From Bacillota bacterium (lineage in GTDB: Bacteria; Bacillota; UBA994; UBA5500), in NCBI GenBank assembly GCA_029781045.1, contig JAKOXL010000025.1:1-55304 (forward strand): 55,304 nt of DNA. The letters run 5' to 3'. Shown in pieces: positions 9,216 to 34,047 of the stretch. A program made the translations under genes and the position numbers. Position 1 is the first letter of the stretch. Each line of letters opens with the position of its first letter. A model generated the notes under the pieces. That model was not told the origin of the DNA. It did not search any database and worked only from the letters and a program-made list of their open reading frames with translations.

Positions 9216-9258
9216 TAAAAAGGCGACTCCGTCGTGGACAGTTGCGGCGGGGTCGCCT
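9216..9258 (-). terminator. Terminator after the RNase HI-propeller gene
   Basis: A 14-base stem with two mismatches (AGGCGACTCCGTCG against its partner ending at 9258) is followed on the minus strand by TTTTTAT. It lies about 85 bases past the stop at 9344. Confidence 0.8.
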
Positions 9259-9343
9259 AAGTAAGGTTATCCTTACAAGGCCAGATCCGTAGTACGGTCA
9301 ACGGCCTTGTTTGCATTATAGACGTAACTCTTTGGATCCTTAG

Positions 9344-10690
9344 TTAGCACTTGAGATATGCGATACCGTCGGGATGGATACCCACGTCGATGCGGTCCAC
9401 TTCCTTCAAGGTAGTTACATCGATCACCGAGATATCGTTAGTCTTATTATTGGCCACATAGGCGAAATGGCCACTGTCGTCAAAGACAACACCGCCAGGC
9501 CACACTCCCACTCGGATGCGCTTAATCTCCCAAGGCCGGCCACAATCGATAATCGACAGGTCCCCCGACTCCCGGTTGGGCACAAAGGCATAGCGTCCGT
9601 CGGGACTCATCATGAGGCGAATCGGAACGGTGCCCAGTTTCAATGTGTGTAACACCCGGTGGTCCTGCGGATCCAGTACGTATAGATTGTTATCGTGCTG
9701 GTTGGCCACATAGACCTGATTGGTATGGGGATGAACCGCCACGCCTTCTGGACCACGACCCACTGGAATATGGGTGACTATCTCCTCCTTTTCCATATCA
9801 AAAAGGGTTAGACTATCCGATCTGATATTGGCAATATAGGCAAAGCGCTCGTCGGGCGTGAGCGACACCATATGTACTGATTCTTGTCCGGTAGCATACA
9901 CTCGCTTAACCTCTAAGGAAGGCAAATCGAAAATGAAGAACTTGCCCGAGCGGGTCGATGCCAGTAGGAGCCTTTTGCCGTCGCGGGTGATGGCCAGGCC
10001 ATGAGGAAAGCGAAAATCGGGGTGCGTTACCCGCTTGGTTATGGTCATAGTATCGTTGTCGAAGGCCAAAAGAGTATCACCGCCGGAGCAGGTAACATAG
10101 GCTTGTTTGCCATCGGGACTAACGACGACTTCATGAGGGTTCTTATCGACCGGGATTGTCTTCACAATCCGGCGGGCGGCAATATCCACGTACATTACGG
10201 TGTCTTCATCTTTATTGAGCACCAGCAAGTAACCGGTCTTGGTCATTGTATCTCCTCCTTTTATGGCCATACGAGCCAAATAGTCACAACGTTCATTTAG
10301 TTCGTTGCCGGCATGACCGGCCACCTTTTCCCATCGGACTCGACGTCTGGCCGCTAGACTTAGTAGTCGCTGCCATAGATCCTTATTGGCCACCGGATCA
10401 CCTTTAGCATTTAGCCAGCCATTTCGCTGCCATTTATCCAGCCAGCCTTCTCGCCAAGCCCGTACCAAGTAGGCGCTATCGCTGTGTATAATCACCTCAC
10501 TTCCTTCGGGGGTGTTTTCTAGAGCCACTACTGTCGCCAGCATTTCCATCCGTTGGTTGGTGGTCTGCTCTTCCCTGCCAAAAAGCTCTTTTATTCCAGC
10601 CGTACTTTTTATGATCACACCGTAACCGCCAGGACCTGGATTCCCTGAACAGGCCCCATCAGTGTAGACTACTATGGTTTCGTTGCTCAT
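9344..10690 (-). CDS. rnhA: RNase HI fused in frame to a YVTN-type beta-propeller
   Basis: Residues 1-145 form a complete RNase HI, which cuts the RNA strand of RNA-DNA hybrids: YTDGACSGNPGPGGYG (Asp11), TTNQRMEM (Glu49), HSDSAYL (Asp71), GHAGN and CDYLAR (Asp136). There is no stop. The frame continues into about 300 residues of seven YVTN/lactonase-like repeats such as VVVSPDGKQAYVTCSGG. The ATG at 10690 has GGAGGG upstream and overlaps the nth 3' end by 32 bases. An intact second ribosome-binding site and ATG lie inside the frame at 10246, so the propeller may also, or mainly, be made separately. The fusion may reflect loss of an rnhA stop codon. Confidence 0.85.
   Translation of the reverse strand: MSNETIVVYTDGACSGNPGPGGYGVIIKSTAGIKELFGREEQTTNQRMEMLATVVALENTPEGSEVIIHSDSAYLVRAWREGWLDKWQRNGWLNAKGDPVANKDLWQRLLSLAARRRVRWEKVAGHAGNELNERCDYLARMAIKGGDTMTKTGYLLVLNKDEDTVMYVDIAARRIVKTIPVDKNPHEVVVSPDGKQAYVTCSGGDTLLAFDNDTMTITKRVTHPDFRFPHGLAITRDGKRLLLASTRSGKFFIFDLPSLEVKRVYATGQESVHMVSLTPDERFAYIANIRSDSLTLFDMEKEEIVTHIPVGRGPEGVAVHPHTNQVYVANQHDNNLYVLDPQDHRVLHTLKLGTVPIRLMMSPDGRYAFVPNRESGDLSIIDCGRPWEIKRIRVGVWPGGVVFDDSGHFAYVANNKTNDISVIDVTTLKEVDRIDVGIHPDGIAYLKC
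10244..10260 (-). promoter_or_regulatory. Internal ribosome-binding site and ATG for the propeller
   Basis: On the minus strand AAGGAGGAGATACAATG sits exactly at the junction of the RNase HI and propeller domains. It has ideal spacing (ATG at 10246) and is read in the fused frame as KGGDTM. Its strength argues that a propeller starting at residue 149 is produced on its own. Confidence 0.75.
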
Positions 10691-23316: not shown

Positions 23317-23529
23317 CTAGCGTACCATCACCAAGTAGATGAACCCATAGATGGCACCAGCAATCAACAATAGGGGAATACCGAGGGTGAGGAAGGCGGC
23401 GATCAACATAGCCAACATGTCGCCTTTCTCTAGCTGAATCTCTTCCATTTTGCGATAGTGCTCATCCAGTTCCTCAGGGCTTTTTTCCTTAGGAAGAAGC
23501 GCTCTTAGCTTCCTCAGCAACTGTTTCAC
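23317..23529 (-). CDS. Small single-span membrane protein at the end of the opp operon
   Basis: A 70-residue protein with a charged N-terminal half ([19 protein letters not shown]) and one or two hydrophobic segments at the C-terminus ([20 protein letters not shown], then YGFIYLVMV). Its start overlaps the OppF-type gene by 41 bases, so it is probably translated from the same message. Not recognised; perhaps an accessory subunit of the transporter, but that is inferred only from position. Confidence 0.6.
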
Positions 23530-25030
23530 CTCTATTTACTAGCGGGTAGTGACAAGCAACAAAGTGTCCTGGTTTCATTTCCCGCCACTCGGGCACCACC
23601 TGCTTGCAGTGCTCTTTGGCATACTTGCAGCGCGTGTGGAAACGACAACCACTGGGTGGATTGATGGGGCTCGGAATATCACCTTCAATCACTGCCAACT
23701 CCTTCTTCCCTTCATCTTCCGTAGTAGGAATAGCATCCAGCAAAGCCTCTGTGTAGGGATGCAGAGGATTGGCAAAAATCTCGTCAGGCGTAGTGAGCTC
23801 CACCAAATTGCCCAGATACATGACCCCCACACGGTCACTGATGAACTTAACCACACTGAGGTCGTGGGAAATAAACAAATAGGTTAGCCTTTTCTGCTCC
23901 TTCAGATCCAATAAGAGATTAATGATCTGTGACTGTATGGAGACATCCAAGGCGCTCACCGGCTCATCACAAACCACAAACTTGGGCTGAGGAGCTAGAG
24001 CTCGGGCAATACCAATCCGTTGCCGCTGACCGCCAGAGAACTGATGCGGGTATCGATGCAGCATGTAGTTCTGCAACCCGCATTGCTCCATCAGACCGAG
24101 CACATACTGCTCCAACATCCGACTGCCGGGCTTGAAAATGCCGTGGGCCGTCAAAGCCTCGCTGATCAACTGCCCCACAGTCAGACGTGGATTGAGGGAG
24201 GAGTAGGGATCTTGGAAGATTATCTGTAACTCCCGACGCAAAACTCGCATTTCGCTGGGAGTAAGCTTCGACAGATCTATGCCATCATCCTGCATGGCTT
24301 CCAGCCGCGCAAAACAATCCTTGCTGGCATAACGCTCCTTTAGCTCCTCAATAACTGCCCCTTTGCTTTCAAACTCTCTCTTGGCCTTGGTAAGCTGGGG
24401 CATCAATTCTTCTATTTCCCGCTTGCAGTCTGAAAGCCGCTTGTTCTCCTCCATAGTGCGGTCAGTTAGGACTTCCAACGCGTCCCGGTTCATCTCCAAA
24501 TCCTTGAGGCGAGCAGCCAGAGGTGCATACAGGCTCCCCGCTTCGTACTCGGCCTCCAACGCCCGGGCCACTTCCTGCAGATCGTCGGCCAGAACCAGAC
24601 CGCCGGCTATGCGGAGCGCATCTTCATAGCGGGAACGCACCCTACGGGCCCTGCGGTCTAAAGACTGGAAGTCAGCGGCCAGCAGATCATGCCCCTTCTC
24701 CTGCACCAAGCGCTCGTAATCAGTTACAATGCTAGGCAACTCATGGATGACCCGGCGCACGTACTTGGGCTTAAACTCTTCCAACGTCCGGCCGTAGTAG
24801 AGGGTGGTGCCACTGGTCTGGGGATACAGCTGCAAGATCACCCGGCCTAAGGTGGACTTTCCGCAACCACTCTCCCCTACCAGACCCAGAGTCTCGCCCT
24901 CATAGATATCCAGCGAGATATTATCGTTGGCCTGCACGTATAATTGCTGGCGCTGGAAAATGGATTTCTTCTTGATAGGGAAGTGCTTGGTTAAGTTCCT
25001 GACACGAATGAGTACCTTCTTATTCTCCAC
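23489..25030 (-). CDS. oppF: Oligopeptide ABC transporter ATPase (OppF type) with a long charged insert
   Basis: Residues 1-70 hold the N-terminal half of an ABC ATPase including Walker [10 protein letters not shown] (53-60). The Q-loop segment [15 protein letters not shown] appears only at about residue 275, the signature [15 protein letters not shown] follows, then Walker [10 protein letters not shown] and the switch histidine FISHDLSVV. The C-terminal oligopeptide-binding extension with clustered Cys ([15 protein letters not shown]) is present. Typical OppF is about 330 residues; here about 180 extra residues of charged helical, coiled-coil-like sequence lie between Walker A and the Q-loop. 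GTG start overlapping oppD by 11 bases. Confidence 0.9.
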
Positions 25031-26015
25031 TGCTTCTCACTCCCTTCTCGGGATAAAAGCACCTGACCGCTTGTACATCGTTGACCTGTACCAATTCCGG
25101 TTCATGCTCATGGCATTTGGCGGTGGCATACTTACAGCGGGGAGCGAACTTGCATCCCGGTGGCAAAGCCAACGGATGAGGCACCGCCCCCGGAATAGCT
25201 TCCAGGCGGTTACCTTGATGGCTCTTAAGCAAAGGAATTGACTTCAGAAGTGCCTCCGTATAGGGGTGTGAGTAGTTACTCCGCGGCCTGAAAATATAAT
25301 CAACGGGTGCCATTTCCACCACTTGCCCACAATACATCACTACCACATCATCGGCCATTTGGTTAATAACACCCAGATCGTGGGTAATGAACATGATAGC
25401 CGTTTTGAATTCTTCTTTTAACTCATTCATAAGGCGCAAGATTTGAGCTTGAATGGTAACGTCAAGGGCAGTAGTGGGCTCGTCGGCTATCAGCAAACGC
25501 GGCCTACAGGCCAAAGCAATAGCTATCATCACCCGCTGACGCATTCCACCAGATAACTGATGCGGGTACTGATAGGCGATCTCTTCCGGATTGGAGATCT
25601 TCACAGCCGCCAGCATTTCCACCGACCGCTGATGGGCCTCCTGCTTACTCAGACCCTGATGTAGCATAAGCACTTCACTGATTTGGCGGCTGATAGTAAA
25701 CACCGGGTTCAAGGAAGTCATGGGCTCCTGGAATATCATAGAGATAGCATTACCCCTGATCTTGTACAACTCTTCCATGGATAAATGGGTAATGTCCCGA
25801 CCATCAAAGATGATCTGGCCCGAATATATCTTCTGGTTCTCCTCAAACAGCTGTAGTACACTGAGGGCCGTCTGGCTCTTGCCACTTCCCGATTCGCCGA
25901 CCACCCCCAGGGTCTTACCCTCTTCCACTGTCAGTGAGACACCGTTAACCGCCTTTATCAGACCCCGTCGAGTCTCAAAATAGGCGTGTAGGTCTTTAAT
26001 CTCTAGCAAGCTCAT
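25020..26015 (-). CDS. oppD: Oligopeptide ABC transporter ATPase OppD
   Basis: A 331-residue ABC ATPase of the Opp/Dpp D type, powering peptide uptake. Walker [11 protein letters not shown]-loop [14 protein letters not shown], signature [15 protein letters not shown], Walker [13 protein letters not shown], switch FITHDLGV and the C-terminal [15 protein letters not shown] motif are all present. It has normal length, unlike its OppF partner. Starts 13 bases after the permease gene and is followed by an overlapping oppF. Confidence 0.95.
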
Positions 26016-26028
26016 TCCTTTTCACCCC

Positions 26029-27906
26029 CTATTTCTGGTTCGCTCTCGGATCCATTGCCTCACGTAAAGCGTCACCCACCAGGTTGACACTCAGAGCAGC
26101 AAGGACCACGAACAGACCGGGTATCAGCCATCGCCACCAATAGTACTCGATAACTGAAGACGTCTGTGCGTTAATTAGGATGTTGCCCCAAGAAGGCGTA
26201 GGGGGAGCCACGCCGAAACCGAGGAAAGACAAACCGGCCTCAGTCAAAAGGGAGCTGGCGTAGCTAAGGGTAATGTTAACTATCACCAAGTTGAAGATAT
26301 TGGGCAATATATGGCGGACTATGATGTTCTGGTACTTGACTCCTAGGGCCCTGGCCGCCAACACAAAGTCCTTTTCGCGTTCCAGAAGGATCTGGGCTCG
26401 GACCAAACGGGCCAAACCTGGCCAACTGAGGAAACCAATAATAACCATGATCATGTAAATGCGGTACATTTCAGATACTCGGCCCCGCACAACTGCCGAA
26501 AGAGTAATAGCAATAGGCAAGAAGGGTATCGCCATGAAAACCTCAGTTAAGCGCATCAGGGCATTGTCTACCCAGCCGCCGAAGAATCCGGCCGTCATAC
26601 CAACCGCAAGAGCAATCACCACGGCAATGCAAACGGAAATAGCCCCCACCGTCAATGATATACGCCCGCCGTGAATGATGCGGGTGAAAAGATCACGCCC
26701 CTGCTCGTCGGTACCAAAGGGGAAACCTTTGTTGCCCCAGGCGGTAATGGTACCGTCTTCGTGGACGGCGTAGTTCTGGAACATACCACCATAGATGCGC
26801 TCCACCGGCTTAGCGGTCAAGGCGACGGGCAGTTCCAGTTGCCCATAATGGTTGGCGCCCCAATAGGCCACCTTCCCATTATCGAACAGCAGGGCCATGT
26901 TGTTCTTACCACCCAACATTTGCTTAACCTTGCCCTGTATTTCCGGCAATTTGAGAAGCCCATACTCGGTGTCGCCCCACACATGCAGTTCACCCTGGTC
27001 ATCGAGGGCCAGTACAGCCCGATACGAGGAGACAATGTCCACAACTCGCACCGAACCATTCTGCAACTCCAGCGGCACGCGGCGGAAAGCGTTCTCAATA
27101 CCAGTGGTATGGACTGTTCCATCATCAAGCAACAAAGCCATGTTGTTAGAGCTGACAGCTACCTTAACAATCCGACCCTGCAATTCTTGCGGAATAAGGT
27201 CCACCCGGTTGGCCATGACACTACCCCAGGCATAAACTTCACCATCGGTAAAAAGAACAGCCGAATAGAGCTCACTGGCATAGATCTCTTTGACCTTCTT
27301 GACTATGAGCTTCTGCTGTAACTCAAAGGGTATCTCTGCTTGCTGGAAGTTGTTTTGACCCCAGCCATAGACCCTCCCCTGATCATCAAGGGCGAGAATA
27401 TGCCTATCACCGGCTGCAACCTGCACGATATTGGCGGCCTTCACTTCCGCGGGAATCTTAAAGATGCTGGTGGAGAAGCCCTCCAGCAAATAAGTGGGTT
27501 GGGTACCCCAGACATAGATATTACCCGCTTCGGAGAGCGCCACAGAAAAGGAGACTCCTGACGAAATGTGTTTTACGCCCTCCTTAACCAGGGCCTTGGG
27601 ATACTTAAGATAGTTCACGCCTGGCCTTATATTACGCAGAGTGGTCTCCGTATGGCTCAAGTCAATGGGTTTGAGGTAAGACCCCACGAAGGAAAAGGAC
27701 AAAATGCAAATAAAACCGATCAAACCGATTATGCCAAGTTTGTGACGGAGGAAGTTCCTGATGATCATCTTGGCAGGGGTCATCAAAGCTTCCTCTTCCA
27801 AGACTGATAGCTGAGGCTTGTCCCTCAGGAAGAGCCGTTTAAACATGGAGAAAAAAGAAGCCAATACCCCATTCTTCTTTGGCTCACGTTCCATCTTTGC
27901 TTCCAT
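26029..27906 (-). CDS. oppC: OppC-type permease with inserted seven-repeat RCC1 propeller
   Basis: A 625-residue permease, about double the usual length. Residues 1-80 hold the cytoplasmic N-terminus and the first membrane helix (LGIIGLIGFICILSFSF). Residues about 105-395 contain seven RCC1-type repeats such as HILALDDQGRVYGWG and NMALLFDNGKVAYWG, which predict a complete seven-bladed propeller. The chain then resumes with the OppC motif FGTDEQGRDLFTRIIHGGRIS and the remaining helices, including the EAA loop (ALGVKYQNIIVRHILPN). The first helix topology puts the propeller outside the cell. It may bind a substrate, the binding protein or the cell wall. Confidence 0.93.
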   Translation of the reverse strand: MEAKMEREPKKNGVLASFFSMFKRLFLRDKPQLSVLEEEALMTPAKMIIRNFLRHKLGIIGLIGFICILSFSFVGSYLKPIDLSHTETTLRNIRPGVNYLKYPKALVKEGVKHISSGVSFSVALSEAGNIYVWGTQPTYLLEGFSTSIFKIPAEVKAANIVQVAAGDRHILALDDQGRVYGWGQNNFQQAEIPFELQQKLIVKKVKEIYASELYSAVLFTDGEVYAWGSVMANRVDLIPQELQGRIVKVAVSSNNMALLLDDGTVHTTGIENAFRRVPLELQNGSVRVVDIVSSYRAVLALDDQGELHVWGDTEYGLLKLPEIQGKVKQMLGGKNNMALLFDNGKVAYWGANHYGQLELPVALTAKPVERIYGGMFQNYAVHEDGTITAWGNKGFPFGTDEQGRDLFTRIIHGGRISLTVGAISVCIAVVIALAVGMTAGFFGGWVDNALMRLTEVFMAIPFLPIAITLSAVVRGRVSEMYRIYMIMVIIGFLSWPGLARLVRAQILLEREKDFVLAARALGVKYQNIIVRHILPNIFNLVIVNITLSYASSLLTEAGLSFLGFGVAPPTPSWGNILINAQTSSVIEYYWWRWLIPGLFVVLAALSVNLVGDALREAMDPRANQK

Positions 27907-27921: not shown

Positions 27922-28893
27922 TTACTCCAACTTGATCCGCGGATCAACCAAACCATAGGTAATATCAGCCACGAAGTTGGCTACGATGCTGAGCATAGCG
28001 AAGAAGAGGTTCATACTGATTACCAACATAAAGTCCCGGTTATTCAAAGCCTTAACAAGCACATGGCCGATGCCGTTCCAGGCAAAAACCGTTTCCGTAA
28101 TGGCTGACCCATAGAATAGAGAAAAGATGGCGCCGATAACAATTGTAGAAATGGGAATGAGAGCGTTGCGGAAGGCATGGGAATAGATAACAACCTTCTC
28201 TGCCAAGCCCTTGGAACGAGCGGTACGAATATAATCCTGATTCAGCGCATCAATCATGGCATTACGCACATAACGGATAGTTCCTGCCAAGCTGATAATG
28301 GTTAACGTCAGCACAGGCAAAGCCATATACTTCAGCCAGGAAAGATAATAGGCCAGATCCTTACCATATACCGTCAGCGGCATGCCTCCTGGAGGCAGCA
28401 AGCGCAGTCTTATGGCTATGGTGAAGATCAGAGTTAAAGCCACAAAGAAAGAAGGCATGGAATAGGTAATGAGGGAAAACACCTGCCAGGCGTTATCGTA
28501 GAATTTTCCGCGTTTGACAGCCATTTTGATCCCTACGGGTAGGGTAATGGCCAACTCCAGTATGATCACGAAGATGTTTAGAATAATGGTGTTTTTCAAG
28601 GGCTCCTTAATGGCGTCTTTTACCGGTCTGTTATGCAGCGTGGACCAACCCAACTCGCCTTGCAGAGTATTCCCTATCCAGCGCAGGTATTGCTCCGGAT
28701 AGGATTTATCCAAGCCGAGTTTTATCTTCATTGCTTCATAAGCAGCCTGATAATGCTCCGCCTTCAGCCCCGGGTTAAGCATCATGCGCACCGGATCGCC
28801 GGGCATCATCTTGAGCAAAGCAAAGAGCATGATGGTGATCAAGATAATTACCGGGATCAAAGAGAGTATTCTACGGATGATGTATCTTAACAA
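27922..28893 (-). CDS. oppB: Oligopeptide ABC transporter permease OppB
   Basis: A 323-residue permease with six predicted helices and the OppB hallmarks: IRRILSLIPVIILITIMLF at the N-terminus, MPGDPVRMML, LGLDKSYPEQYLRWIGN, and the EAA-type loop TARSKGLAEKVVIYSHAFRN. TTG start with GGAGG upstream. It pairs with the propeller-bearing permease to form the pore. No unusual domains. Confidence 0.95.
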   Translation of the reverse strand: MLRYIIRRILSLIPVIILITIMLFALLKMMPGDPVRMMLNPGLKAEHYQAAYEAMKIKLGLDKSYPEQYLRWIGNTLQGELGWSTLHNRPVKDAIKEPLKNTIILNIFVIILELAITLPVGIKMAVKRGKFYDNAWQVFSLITYSMPSFFVALTLIFTIAIRLRLLPPGGMPLTVYGKDLAYYLSWLKYMALPVLTLTIISLAGTIRYVRNAMIDALNQDYIRTARSKGLAEKVVIYSHAFRNALIPISTIVIGAIFSLFYGSAITETVFAWNGIGHVLVKALNNRDFMLVISMNLFFAMLSIVANFVADITYGLVDPRIKLE

Positions 28894-29042: not shown

Positions 29043-30839
29043 CTATTCTTTATAGATGTCGCAGATGATATCGGACCAGTCAGCAAAAGGCGTGGTGTTC
29101 ATGCCTTTGACGTGCTTGCTGAAGATATCATAGTATTGGTTGGAGTAGAGCGGAATCGTTGGCAGATAGTCGGCGTAAGCCTTCTGGAATTCCAACCAGA
29201 GTTTGGAGTACTCTTCTCTCTGGGTAGGCTCCAGACTTCTCATTGCCTTAGTCAGCCTATCAATCTCTGGGTCATTGACCTGGTTAGCGTTCATCCAGGT
29301 ACCTAGCCAATCAGAGTGGAAGCTATAGTACGGGTCATAGGCAACGCTGAAGTTGGAGGCCAAGTTGAAGGTATGATACTTACGCTCTCCCTCGGGGAGC
29401 TCATAGGCATAGTAGTAATGGCTTAACAAGGCATCGAAGTCACCGCGAGTCAAGGTAAACTCAATACCGGCCAGCGGTGCATTGGCTTTCAGCTGCAATT
29501 CTACATTGTCGGTCACCGTGTTGTCTTCGGTACCGAAGTGGTTTATCACCAGCTTTTCGCCCTTGGAGTTGTGGCGAATGTAGGTGCCTTCCGCATTGGC
29601 CTTGGACGGATCAAACGGAGTTACACCGTCGGCCTCGAATCGCCATTCGGTCTGATCCAAGAGCTCATTGGCCTTAGCGATGTCGCGGCTGAAGTGAGGC
29701 AGAGCATCGATCTCGGCCTTGTTCTCTTGGTACATCCACTGGGCCAGACCATAGTGGCCGTTGGTTACCGAACCATAACCGCCCAGCACGTTCTTGATGA
29801 TTTCATCGCGGTCCATCAAGTATGCCAAGGCATGGCGCACTTCTTTAACTGCGGTAGGCCCGAAGTCGCAATGCATGAAGAAGCCACCAAAACCATTGCG
29901 GGCATACCAGTGTGTTACCGTGTTCTTATCGGCCTTAGCCTTTTCAATCTTCTCGCCTTGAATTACACCGGTGACCATGTCGATTTCGCCGTTAATGACC
30001 TGGTCCACATCGGTGGCCTGGTTAACCGAGCGAATAATAACAGTTTCTAGTTTTGGTTTCTTGCCATCATAGGTGCCTTTGAAATGCTCATTCTTCACGA
30101 GGGTGACCGCATTGTTCTCGTAGCTCACGAACTTGAACGGTCCACAGCTGACCGTAGGAGCAAAACGGTAGCCAGCGGCTATAGCTGCGGTCGCCTCTTT
30201 TAGGTCAATGCCGGCGATCTTGGCACCATCTTCATTCTGGTCGATGGTGGCACCCGGAGCCCACACTGCCATGGGCAGCGGCATGAAAGAAGCATAAACG
30301 GTTTCATAGAAGTAGGGCAGTTCAGCGGCATCAATGGTCACTGAGAAAGTATAATCATCAATTAACTTGACGCCTTTAAAGCGATCCACTTGGCCACTGT
30401 AGTACGCCCTATAGCCTACTAGACCTTCGCCCACGGTGCTGGAGGCACCGGCTTCAACCCACTGGGGCGATGCATACCAGAGAATGTAGAACACATAGTC
30501 GGCGGCCGTAATTGGGCTACCATCATTCCATTTCAGATCATCGTGGATAGTGAATGTATAAGTCTTGTTGCCCGCATCATCGACTTCGGTAGTGAGATTC
30601 TTCACGACTGTCTCATCCAGCACAATCTCACCAGCCGGTGTGGTGGCATATGTGCTATGACCCAAGATCATGTTGCGAACCCAAACGTCGTAGGCGTTAT
30701 TACCAAATCCGGGAATGAAGTTGCCCGAGAGTTCCGGACTGCCCACGATTAGTGTCTTGGTATCAACTTTTGGCCCACACCCTACCAAAGCGACCAAGAC
30801 TAGTGCCACTGAAAGCAACAGCAACAGCGACTTTCTCAT
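29043..30839 (-). CDS. oppA: Oligopeptide-binding lipoprotein OppA
   Basis: A 598-residue solute-binding protein (SBP family 5). The signal LLLLLSVALVLVALVGCG ends in a lipobox whose Cys would be lipidated and anchor the protein to the membrane. Family features include the N-terminal TKTLIVGSPELSGNF segment, YTFTIHDDLKWNDGSPITAADYVF, VRHALAYLMDRDEIIKNV and a C-terminal YADYLPTIPLYSNQYYD segment. First gene of the operon; ATG preceded by AAGGAGGAGG. Confidence 0.95.
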   Translation of the reverse strand: MRKSLLLLLSVALVLVALVGCGPKVDTKTLIVGSPELSGNFIPGFGNNAYDVWVRNMILGHSTYATTPAGEIVLDETVVKNLTTEVDDAGNKTYTFTIHDDLKWNDGSPITAADYVFYILWYASPQWVEAGASSTVGEGLVGYRAYYSGQVDRFKGVKLIDDYTFSVTIDAAELPYFYETVYASFMPLPMAVWAPGATIDQNEDGAKIAGIDLKEATAAIAAGYRFAPTVSCGPFKFVSYENNAVTLVKNEHFKGTYDGKKPKLETVIIRSVNQATDVDQVINGEIDMVTGVIQGEKIEKAKADKNTVTHWYARNGFGGFFMHCDFGPTAVKEVRHALAYLMDRDEIIKNVLGGYGSVTNGHYGLAQWMYQENKAEIDALPHFSRDIAKANELLDQTEWRFEADGVTPFDPSKANAEGTYIRHNSKGEKLVINHFGTEDNTVTDNVELQLKANAPLAGIEFTLTRGDFDALLSHYYYAYELPEGERKYHTFNLASNFSVAYDPYYSFHSDWLGTWMNANQVNDPEIDRLTKAMRSLEPTQREEYSKLWLEFQKAYADYLPTIPLYSNQYYDIFSKHVKGMNTTPFADWSDIICDIYKE

Positions 30840-31106: not shown

Positions 31107-31118
31107 CTAAAAATGTCC
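31090..31118 (-). terminator. Terminator overlapping the reductase stop
   Basis: Stem GGACAT with ATGTCC, nine-base loop, followed on the minus strand by TTTTCTT. The stop codon of the upstream frame lies within it (31107-31109). Confidence 0.65.
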
Positions 31119-32188
31119 ACGTACGCGTACACTAAAGAGGCCAGAACGCATGGCCAGATTCCTGAGTTGCGGTTGATACATGACCGGCGACTTGAGATTC
31201 TTGCCTAATAGATTTAGGCGCAGTTTCACCGCCGCCCTGCGGTAACGGTCCAAGACTCCCTCCAATCCTGGTTGCAAACAGTCGGCCAGCATTATGGCGC
31301 TGCGTAGAGCATAACTGATACCTTCCGCCGAGCTGGGACTGATCCACCCAGCGGCTTCCCCAATTAGGGATACCCCTCCTAAGACAGGCAGTGGTTCTGT
31401 GAACCAAGGACGTAACAGGAATGCCCCCTCTCGCCCAGTCTTCTCACCCCATCTCAAGCCATAGTCCCACAGACGTTCTTTGAAAGCCTGAAATAGCTGG
31501 CTGGCCTTGGAGCCAGGTGCTAGAGCCACCCCGACCAGCAACTCATCCTGCTTGGGGATAGTCCATCCATAAAAGTCGGTAATGTGACGGGCAAAGACGG
31601 CAGTGAAATAAGGCATCGACTGTTCAGCACGAAATCTTTCTTGGATAGCCACATATGGTCGCAAATGACTGCTGGCCCCTAAAGCCTGCCTTCTGACCAA
31701 CGAGTTGGCGCCATCGGCTCCTATTAGCAAGCGGGCCCGTTCCTGCCAGCGTCTGCCCTCCCGTTGTAGGGTCAAGGTAAGGTAGTTATCTCGCCCTCCC
31801 GTTGATAACCACAGAAGGTGGCTCCAAAACAAGTGGTGACTCCAACGGCGGAGGCTAAAGAAACCAGCCAACGATCAAACCTTTCCCGCTCTATATTGAT
31901 ATAAAAACGCTGATAGTAGCGTTCGAAACCCTGATCCAGGTCAATGGTGCGGACAACAAACAACTGGGGCCCAACCAATACTTCCCGCGGAAGCCCCAAT
32001 CCTAACTGGGCCAACACCTTCTGGGCATCGGGAGCCAACAACCCACCACAGCTCTTGATGGGGCTACCAGCTGTAACCTCTTGATCCAGATCGCGCCGAT
32101 CAACCAATAGTATTCGATAGCGCTTCCCCAGTAGTCGCGCCAAAGTGGCTCCCGCCGGACCTGCCCCTACAATGGCTAGATCATACAT
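31107..32188 (-). pseudogene. Geranylgeranyl reductase-family flavoprotein, frameshifted
   Basis: The 5' part starts at an ATG at 32188 (AGGAGG upstream) and encodes an FAD Rossmann motif (LAIVGAGPAGATLARLLG) and the family's CGGLL segment. It then hits a stop at 31772. The second frame, from roughly 31800 on, carries the rest: LLIGADGANSLVRR, YGWTIPKQDELLVGV, LIGEAAGWISPSSAEGI and the C-terminus. One extra G in the GGG run near 31795 would restore a single frame. Members reduce isoprenoid double bonds or otherwise use FAD. This is either a recent inactivation or a sequence error. Confidence 0.8.
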
Positions 32189-32209
32189 GGGCATCCTCCT
32201 ATAAGAACT

Positions 32210-32247: not shown

Positions 32248-34047
32248 TTAGAAACTTTCCACTACCAGATCCACCAATGAACCCACGTAAGCCACCGCAG
32301 CATAAATGGGATCGGGCTTGGTCATGTCAACGCCAGCCATCTTCGCCAACTCCATTGGTGGTTTGGTACCGCCGGCCTTCAGCACCTCTAACCAGCGGTC
32401 TACCGCCGGCTGCCCCTCCTCCAGTATAGCTTGGGCCACCGCCGTACCAATAGTCAATCCCGCTGAATAGCTGTAGGGATATAGACCCATGTAATAGTGG
32501 GGCTGGCGCATCCAGGTTAGGCGGGCCCCCTCATCAATCTCCACTGTGTCACCCCAGAACTCTTGCAGTATCTCACCCTGGACTTGACTGAGCACGCTGG
32601 CCGTAATAGGCTGCCCCTTTTCCGCCATGGCAAAGATACGACGCTGCAGCTCACCCTCGATCAAGTGGCGCACGAAGTTGTGATAATAGGTCATCAGCAG
32701 CTGCATGGCCAACCAGCGAATCATCCGCGGATCGTTGCTCTGCGACTTGATATAGTTGCCTACCAACAGCTCGTTAATGGTTGATGGAGCTTCGATGAAG
32801 AACATGGAAGCGCGAGCATTGCTGGGTCGCTGATAACGTAAGGACAATACCCCGTGGCCCGCATGGCCCAACTCATGACTCAGCAACAGGGCGCTGCGCA
32901 TGTTGTCAGTCCAAGTCACTAGGATATAGGGATGTACATCGGGAACCGTAGTACAGAAGGCACCCGTGGACTTACCAATGTTGTTGGCCAAGTCGATCCA
33001 GCGATTCTTTAGACCAGTTTCAATGATGGTCGCATACTCTTCTCCCAGAACCGAAAGACCTTTGAGGATGATCTCCGAAGCAACTTCGAATGTGGCCGGT
33101 GGGCTAAACTCTGGATCTAGCGGCGCTTCAATATCACAGTAGAGCAGTTTATCCAGCCCCAGCACCTTCTTACGCAGCTCCGCATAACGGCGCATGTGGG
33201 GCGCCAGCTCCTTCAGGATAATGTCGTGCAGGTTGTTATAGACCTCTAGGCTCACTTCTTGGCCATGCAGTAGCATATGGGTAGCAGATTCAAAACCTCG
33301 CAACTTGGCCAGAGTCACTTGTTTCTTTACTTCCGTACCCCAGGTTGCCCCATAGGTGTTCTGATAGGCTTGCAAGCCCTTCGTGAAGGAGGCATAGGCA
33401 TTGCGCCGGAGGGTAGTATCGGGTGACTTCTCATAGGCTTCCTCATACATGGCAAACGACATGGGGTGGCTGTTGCCTTGGCTGTCTAAGACCGGTTCAA
33501 AGGTCATATCGGCGGCCTTTGAACGGGTGTAGATCATATATGGCGCATTCAGCACTTCACCTAAAGAGGCCAACGCCTTTTCCGTTTCCGGATGCAACAT
33601 ATAGGGTTTTTCCGCTGTCAGTTTTTCAATAAGCCGCTGGAACTCCCTCAATCGGGGCTCTTCCTCCAAGTAGCGCTCCAGTGTTCCCTCCGGCAAACTC
33701 AAGGCCTCTGAACGAATGAAGGAAGTGGCCGCCTCCACCTGGGCTGCCATAGCCGCGGCCCGCCCCATGGCCATCTGGTTGGCCGGATCGGTACCATCGG
33801 CCGACTGCTTCAAAGAAGCATAGGTCCTAACCCGCATTACCTTCTTCGTCAAATCTTCCATCGCTTCCAAACATGCCAGGAAGACGTCCGGCCCCTCTCC
33901 CAAGCGCCCTTGATACTGGGTGACGGAAGGGACTTCGGCCAACACCGCAGCTAGCGCTTCTTCCCAAGCCGTATCATCGGGATAAATGTCGGTTAGGTTC
34001 CAGGTCAAATGTTCAGGGACCTCTGCCCGTCGCAAACGTTTACTCAT
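32248..34047 (-). CDS. pepF: M3-family oligoendopeptidase F
   Basis: A 599-residue zinc metallopeptidase cleaving oligopeptides in the cytoplasm. The zinc site is LLSHELGHAGHG (HExxH) and the downstream glutamate is in FFIEAPSTINELLVGN. Other family traits are the YHNFVRHLIEGELQRRIF segment and the SYSAGLTIGTAVAQ near the C-terminus. ATG start with AAGGAGG upstream. Downstream on the same strand, after the frameshifted reductase, is the peptide importer, so it probably hydrolyses imported peptides, though cotranscription is not shown. Confidence 0.94.
   Translation of the reverse strand: MSKRLRRAEVPEHLTWNLTDIYPDDTAWEEALAAVLAEVPSVTQYQGRLGEGPDVFLACLEAMEDLTKKVMRVRTYASLKQSADGTDPANQMAMGRAAAMAAQVEAATSFIRSEALSLPEGTLERYLEEEPRLREFQRLIEKLTAEKPYMLHPETEKALASLGEVLNAPYMIYTRSKAADMTFEPVLDSQGNSHPMSFAMYEEAYEKSPDTTLRRNAYASFTKGLQAYQNTYGATWGTEVKKQVTLAKLRGFESATHMLLHGQEVSLEVYNNLHDIILKELAPHMRRYAELRKKVLGLDKLLYCDIEAPLDPEFSPPATFEVASEIILKGLSVLGEEYATIIETGLKNRWIDLANNIGKSTGAFCTTVPDVHPYILVTWTDNMRSALLLSHELGHAGHGVLSLRYQRPSNARASMFFIEAPSTINELLVGNYIKSQSNDPRMIRWLAMQLLMTYYHNFVRHLIEGELQRRIFAMAEKGQPITASVLSQVQGEILQEFWGDTVEIDEGARLTWMRQPHYYMGLYPYSYSAGLTIGTAVAQAILEEGQPAVDRWLEVLKAGGTKPPMELAKMAGVDMTKPDPIYAAVAYVGSLVDLVVESF

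Follow-up and report, generated by a model that had tools for sequence, protein, structure and literature searches.

An OppC permease with a complete RCC1-type propeller built into one of its loops is encoded in the window, which here means the whole 55,304-nucleotide stretch of Bacillota DNA that was analysed. By the tree of its permease core, the fusion has a single origin, and it is accompanied by a helical insert in the OppF ATPase of the same operon. We propose that the propeller serves outside the cell as a rigid docking module, placed on the OppC/OppF half of the transporter and most likely holding the substrate-binding protein OppA or regulating delivery; the probability we attach to this reading is about 0.4. 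A sequence-only reading of the window had already drawn the architecture correctly, but it missed the conserved family of single origin, the OppF insert and a smaller insert in OppA.

Results

The fusion gene and its predicted fold

The gene occupies 26029..27906 on the minus strand as one open reading frame of 625 aa with an ATG start, and the plus strand over the same positions is riddled with stops. Pfam profiles recognized OppC_N at residues 43-88 (25.9 bits versus a cut-off of 23.9) and BPD_transp_1 at residues 433-622 (108 bits versus 26.4). The RCC1 HMM search detected six stretches of RCC1_2 (PF13540; E 1e-35, 121 bits versus 22) as well as PF00415 (40 bits versus 21.7), and the RCC1-like whole-domain model PF25390 (WD40_RLD) reached 144.1 bits, below its curated cut-off of 150. 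For the core, the top NCBIfam model was Opp4C (NF045476), with 306.2 bits over residues 392-621, under its cut-off of 350 bits. Sequences of HERC2, UVR8, RCC1 and BLIP-II in the PDB matched residues ~102-395, and those of OppC and DppC of E. coli and of M. tuberculosis matched residues 391-623. Along the minus strand the protein is divided into OppC_N with the first transmembrane helix, TM1 (residues 44-88, 27643..27777; AlphaFold2 helix 56-78), the RCC1-type propeller (residues 105-395, 26722..27594) and the post-propeller OppC core (residues 396-625, 26032..26721). The core contains the FGTDEQGRD motif, TM2-TM6 and the EAA coupling motif, and it matches 8z21_B and 8z1v_B.

AlphaFold2 on an alignment of 36 sequences gave a mean pLDDT of 84 for the full protein and a pTM of 0.77, with pLDDT values of ~90-95 in most blocks of the propeller. 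The model showed a complete propeller of seven blades with three strands each (111-134, 160-184, 205-228, 246-269, 288-311, 327-350 and 368-391). When the PDB was searched with Foldseek, the nearest compact solved structure was BLIP-II (1jtd_B, TM(target) 0.84, rmsd 2.5), and the permease core matched E. coli OppC (8z21_B, TM(target) 0.71, rmsd 2.3). These results bear out what had been claimed from the letters of the window: an otherwise intact OppC permease with a seven-repeat RCC1 domain, a repeat count that fits a closed propeller, and propeller limits at about residues 105-395, which proved right within a few residues (strands 111-391).

The legs that join the propeller to the membrane part were ordered in the model (pLDDT ~90 at residues 91-110 and 390-400), and the two legs seem to adjoin each other, judging by isolated bridge residues near 96 and 395-399. 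Because the legs are ordered and seemingly adjacent and the pTM is 0.77, the model favours a propeller that is fixed in place over a floppy one.

Insertion site and topology

Taking the propeller-free OppC L012 (...DLSNIQSPPSLAHPMGTDEVGRD) as reference, we found that the canonical TM1-TM2 loop (DLSHTETTLRNIRPG...) is retained in the fusion protein. The propeller sits after this retained stretch and before FGTDEQGRD, and its final blade ends with WGN a few residues ahead of the motif. The insertion point had been described as precise, and it was the same in all 36 full-length proteins. The topology of the TM1-TM2 loop was taken from the E. coli structure (PMC12136057). By homology with E. coli OppC/DppC, the loop with the propeller should face the outer side of the membrane, which agrees with the extracellular placement suggested earlier.

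Extra sequence at this site was also observed in other OppC lineages. The sister lineage L015/L016 holds ~85 aa extra in the TM1-GTD loop without RCC1 repeats, and L028 (G049:C36), an OppC of 514 aa, holds ~210 aa of unrelated beta-rich sequence. The TM1-GTD loop looks like an insertion hotspot, and the RCC1 fusion may have been able to arise there because the loop takes extra sequence in these lineages too.

Spread, origin and conservation of the fusion

The window and 35 loci from other genomes gave 36 full-length proteins, each with one open reading frame, the same insertion point and seven aligned repeats; the remaining family members are 37-80% identical to the window's protein. Full-length homologues were present in both other genomes of the genus and in another genus of the family. 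Farther off, they occurred in a second family of the same class (71%) and in other parts of the phylum (61%). The fusion was detected in 13 of the 398 sampled genomes of the phylum, with a wide score gap to other RCC1 proteins. When 84,980 named species were scanned with two peptide patterns, which favour close relatives and say little on non-Bacillota, it was found in many more Bacillota, including the cultured Hungatella effluvii DSM 24995 and bins of Roseburia, Ruminococcus, Christensenella, Eubacterium and Erysipelothrix. No plasmid record covered 80% of the fusion protein. The window's genome also encodes a second RCC1 protein (L002/L035; G000:C33, ~9235-9450), a 405-aa frame that has a membrane anchor or signal at its N terminus and lacks the permease part.

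When a maximum-likelihood tree was built from the permease core only, all 36 fusions fell into a single clade (100/98), separate from the 18 propeller-free OppC in the tree. Because they form one clade on this tree, we infer that the fusion was acquired once. The clade spans several classes and families. The survey of spread proposed by the sequence-only reading ended in a conserved family of single origin in many Bacillota. Propeller distances correlate with those of the OppC core and OppB (r 0.91), which indicates that the propeller was inherited with the permease and not exchanged. The propeller is under purifying selection, with a dN/dS of 0.07-0.19 where synonymous change is unsaturated.

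Conservation is highest in blade 7, which leads directly into TM2 (mean 0.63 versus 0.46-0.54 for the other blades; core 0.68). The conserved stretch of this blade is FQNYAV...WGLKGF, and F376, Q377, N378 and Y379 together with K393 and F395 are near-invariant although they deviate from the common RCC1 motif. As deduced from the strand order, the best-kept loops, those of blades 6, 7 and 2, lie on the face where the chain exits to TM2, and the inter-blade loops of the opposite face are the least conserved.

The operon and its flanks

The order oppA-oppB-oppC(RCC1)-oppD-oppF was found in every locus with a long enough contig. The five-part operon encodes an SBP_bac_5 protein, two BPD_transp_1 permeases and two ABC ATPases with oligo_HPY. 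In the window, on the minus strand, OppA is a substrate-binding lipoprotein of 598 aa with the lipobox LVGC (29043..30839; SBP_bac_5 in Pfam), OppB is a permease of 323 aa (27922..28893; Pfam/NCBIfam and alignment) and OppD is an ordinary ATPase of 331 aa (25020..26015; Pfam). Clade-specific inserts were sought in OppB and OppD by comparison, and none was found. The OppA loop at ~185-225 is longer than in OppA of other Opp operons, and clade-specific runs occur at residues 202 and 407; against the comparison set of 16 OppA from other operons, one stretch of 8 residues and one of 7 residues are strictly private. Gene content and folds identify the system as a complete member of the Opp/Dpp family of type I ABC peptide importers. 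With a normal permease core and ATPase fold and a normal 4Cys motif in OppF, the pump should work as a peptide importer.

The flanks of the fusion operons held no constant neighbour genes outside the operon from which a substrate could be read. In the window, the gene of oligoendopeptidase F (PepF, Peptidase_M3; 32248-34047, minus strand) lies upstream of the operon, and peptidases flank some other fusion operons. Two overlapping frames share a flavoprotein-like gene (31107-32194, minus strand; N-terminal MPMYDLAIVGAGPAGATLARLL), which may have suffered a frameshift or be a pseudogene.

The helical insert of OppF

OppF of the window (23489..25030, minus strand) is an ATPase of 513 aa by Pfam, and alignment placed an insert of ~165 aa in it between Walker A and the Q-loop (residues ~89-250, 24281..24766). 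OppF of the fusion operons is ~490-540 aa long, and the insert bears a conserved I.GGL..ADDL motif. AlphaFold2 (pLDDT 86.5 for OppF) predicted a helical or coiled-coil insert with helices at 98-112, 126-147, 151-186 and 193-234 (block pLDDT 82-98). A profile search of the insert against the PDB returned generic coiled coils only (best E 0.0024). The rest of OppF matches E. coli OppF (8z21_D, TM(target) 0.91), and C462, C468, C475 and C493 are invariant. The spacing of these four cysteines resembles the [4Fe-4S] site of E. coli DppF (PMC12136057).

A profile of the insert matched strongly in 13 of the 398 phylum genomes (E below 1e-44), 12 of which also carry the fusion. In G351 the fusion was found without a match to the insert, but its contig ends inside oppD, which makes this genome uninformative. 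In G193 the insert lies in an orphan oppD-oppF pair beside kbl/tdh, without adjoining oppA, oppB or oppC (L162, G193:C42, 5220-7755), which rules this locus out as an operon of a propeller-free OppC with the insert. Thirteen other Opp operons with OppF were seen in the same or neighbouring genomes, and their OppF is 325-352 aa long in 11 of them; the stop-to-stop frames of the remaining two are 407 and 419 aa, and the insert profile finds nothing there. Both additions, the propeller and the OppF insert, are confined to a single clade.

In the E. coli structure DppB pairs with DppD, and DppC with DppF (PMC12136057). Because DppC contacts DppF in E. coli, we infer by analogy that the OppC propeller and the OppF insert share one half of the transporter.

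Discussion

What the propeller may do

The sequence-only reading had named peptide, OppA, cell wall or another cell as candidate partners of the propeller. In the docking mechanism that we favour, the two short adjacent legs and the conserved blade 7 would fix the propeller on the permease, next to the site where substrate enters. The propeller would then be a protein-docking platform, most likely for the lobes of OppA. Loaded OppA could be retained or selected, and released peptide could be kept from escaping. The OppF insert would probably adjust ATPase coupling or recruit a cytoplasmic partner. The docking of a protein is favoured because the closest domain relatives, BLIP-II, RCC1, UVR8 and RPGR, are protein binders, and because a loop in the OppA of fusion operons is private to them. 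On the other side, OppC need not seal the cavity, because the scoop motif that seals it in E. coli belongs to DppB. No excess co-evolution between propeller and OppA was detectable (partial distance correlation of 0.09 given the OppC core and OppD).

The propeller might instead be a sensor, which would bind a ligand of its own outside the cell (a signalling peptide, a cell-wall fragment or an antimicrobial peptide) and gate the pump, with the OppF insert as the reader inside. The outside and inside inserts do co-occur (12 genomes with both, against 13 with the propeller and 13 with the OppF insert; n=398), although co-inheritance of one operon alone also predicts this, and G193 keeps the OppF insert without the propeller at least once. 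By the E. coli pairing both inserts would be on the OppC-OppF half, and variation is greater in the outward-facing inter-blade loops than in the region of blades 6 and 7, as it might be on a ligand face; a constant signalling gene was absent from the flanks. We regard a sensor, or 'transceptor', as possible but doubtful. It is unlikely that the system is a two-sided regulated importer, in which the propeller would respond to the state of OppA or to a ligand outside the cell, and the OppF domain would pass this on as an intracellular signal or by controlling ATP hydrolysis. If it were, a peptide pump would double as a receptor.

An anchor that ties the transporter to peptidoglycan, the S-layer or an extracellular peptidase, where peptides are made, is an improbable role as well. 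RCC1 propellers usually bind proteins, which speaks for such a tie, and genes of M3, M29, M20, M32 and S15 peptidases adjoin a minority of the operons, with PepF (M3) in the window. This minority was counted without a background rate, however, and none of the peptidases is a constant neighbour of the operon; the propeller would also turn its conserved part to the permease side and not outward, as deduced from the strand order.

It is very unlikely that the propeller is a spacer, neutral or structural, which was inserted by accident into a permissive loop and is tolerated there. The loop does hold other extra sequence (~85 aa in L015/L016, ~210 aa in L028), but seven repeats were kept in 36 of 36 members with a dN/dS of 0.07-0.19, and a fusion of single origin has spread over several classes and families. 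Misassembly or the erroneous joining of two genes, a check named by the sequence-only reading, is a negligible explanation, since the same single-ORF fusion is repeated in 36 sequences from different genomes, including cultured Hungatella effluvii DSM 24995, and is real. The other refuting outcome that the sequence-only reading had named, a structure prediction without a propeller, did not occur either.

Comparison with known systems

Bacteria take up peptides as food through Opp/Dpp importers, which also bring in signal peptides and antibiotics. The system in the window shares with those of E. coli (8z21, 8z1v-8z1y) and M. tuberculosis (8j5q, 8wd9) the gene content and order, SBP_bac_5, two BPD_transp_1 permeases with the EAA motif, two oligo_HPY ATPases and the 4Cys pattern of OppF; E. 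coli OppC is 41% identical to the permease core of the fusion over 224 aligned columns. It differs in the 290-aa OppC propeller between TM1 and the GTD motif, the ~165-aa OppF insert and the extra OppA loop. The core resembles Opp4C, but the NF045476 model of 278 positions has no propeller, and the score of 306 bits stays under its cut-off of 350. In OppC L015, L016 and L028 the extra sequence is at the same TM1-GTD site, but it is short or unrelated and without RCC1.

The compact seven-bladed fold is that of BLIP-II and bacterial RCC1-like propellers (1jtd_B, 3qhy_B). BLIP-II is a free secreted beta-lactamase inhibitor, whereas the propeller here belongs to a membrane permease. Guanine exchange on a Ran-type GTPase, the activity of RCC1, would not be expected of a domain on the cell's exterior. 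The importer type and the propeller type are both known. Our literature search found no paper joining RCC1 and OppC and no described function for the architecture, as the sequence-only reading had said; by the literature searched, the combination appears to be new. The fusion lineage offers a natural case in which to ask how permeases hold, select or gate their substrate-binding proteins, and whether peptide pumps can serve as receptors, and the cultured carrier Hungatella effluvii DSM 24995 makes the system open to testing.

The nearest precedent is the P2 domain of MalF in the maltose importer, which is also an extracytoplasmic domain in a loop of one type I importer permease. MalF P2 contacts its binding protein, and extracytoplasmic permease domains hold or select binding proteins in other importers. 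P2 has another fold and lies between TM3 and TM4, where the fusion OppC has no homologous domain; here an RCC1 propeller lies between TM1 and TM2. A docking role of the propeller would parallel that of MalF P2, by means of an unrelated domain at a different loop.
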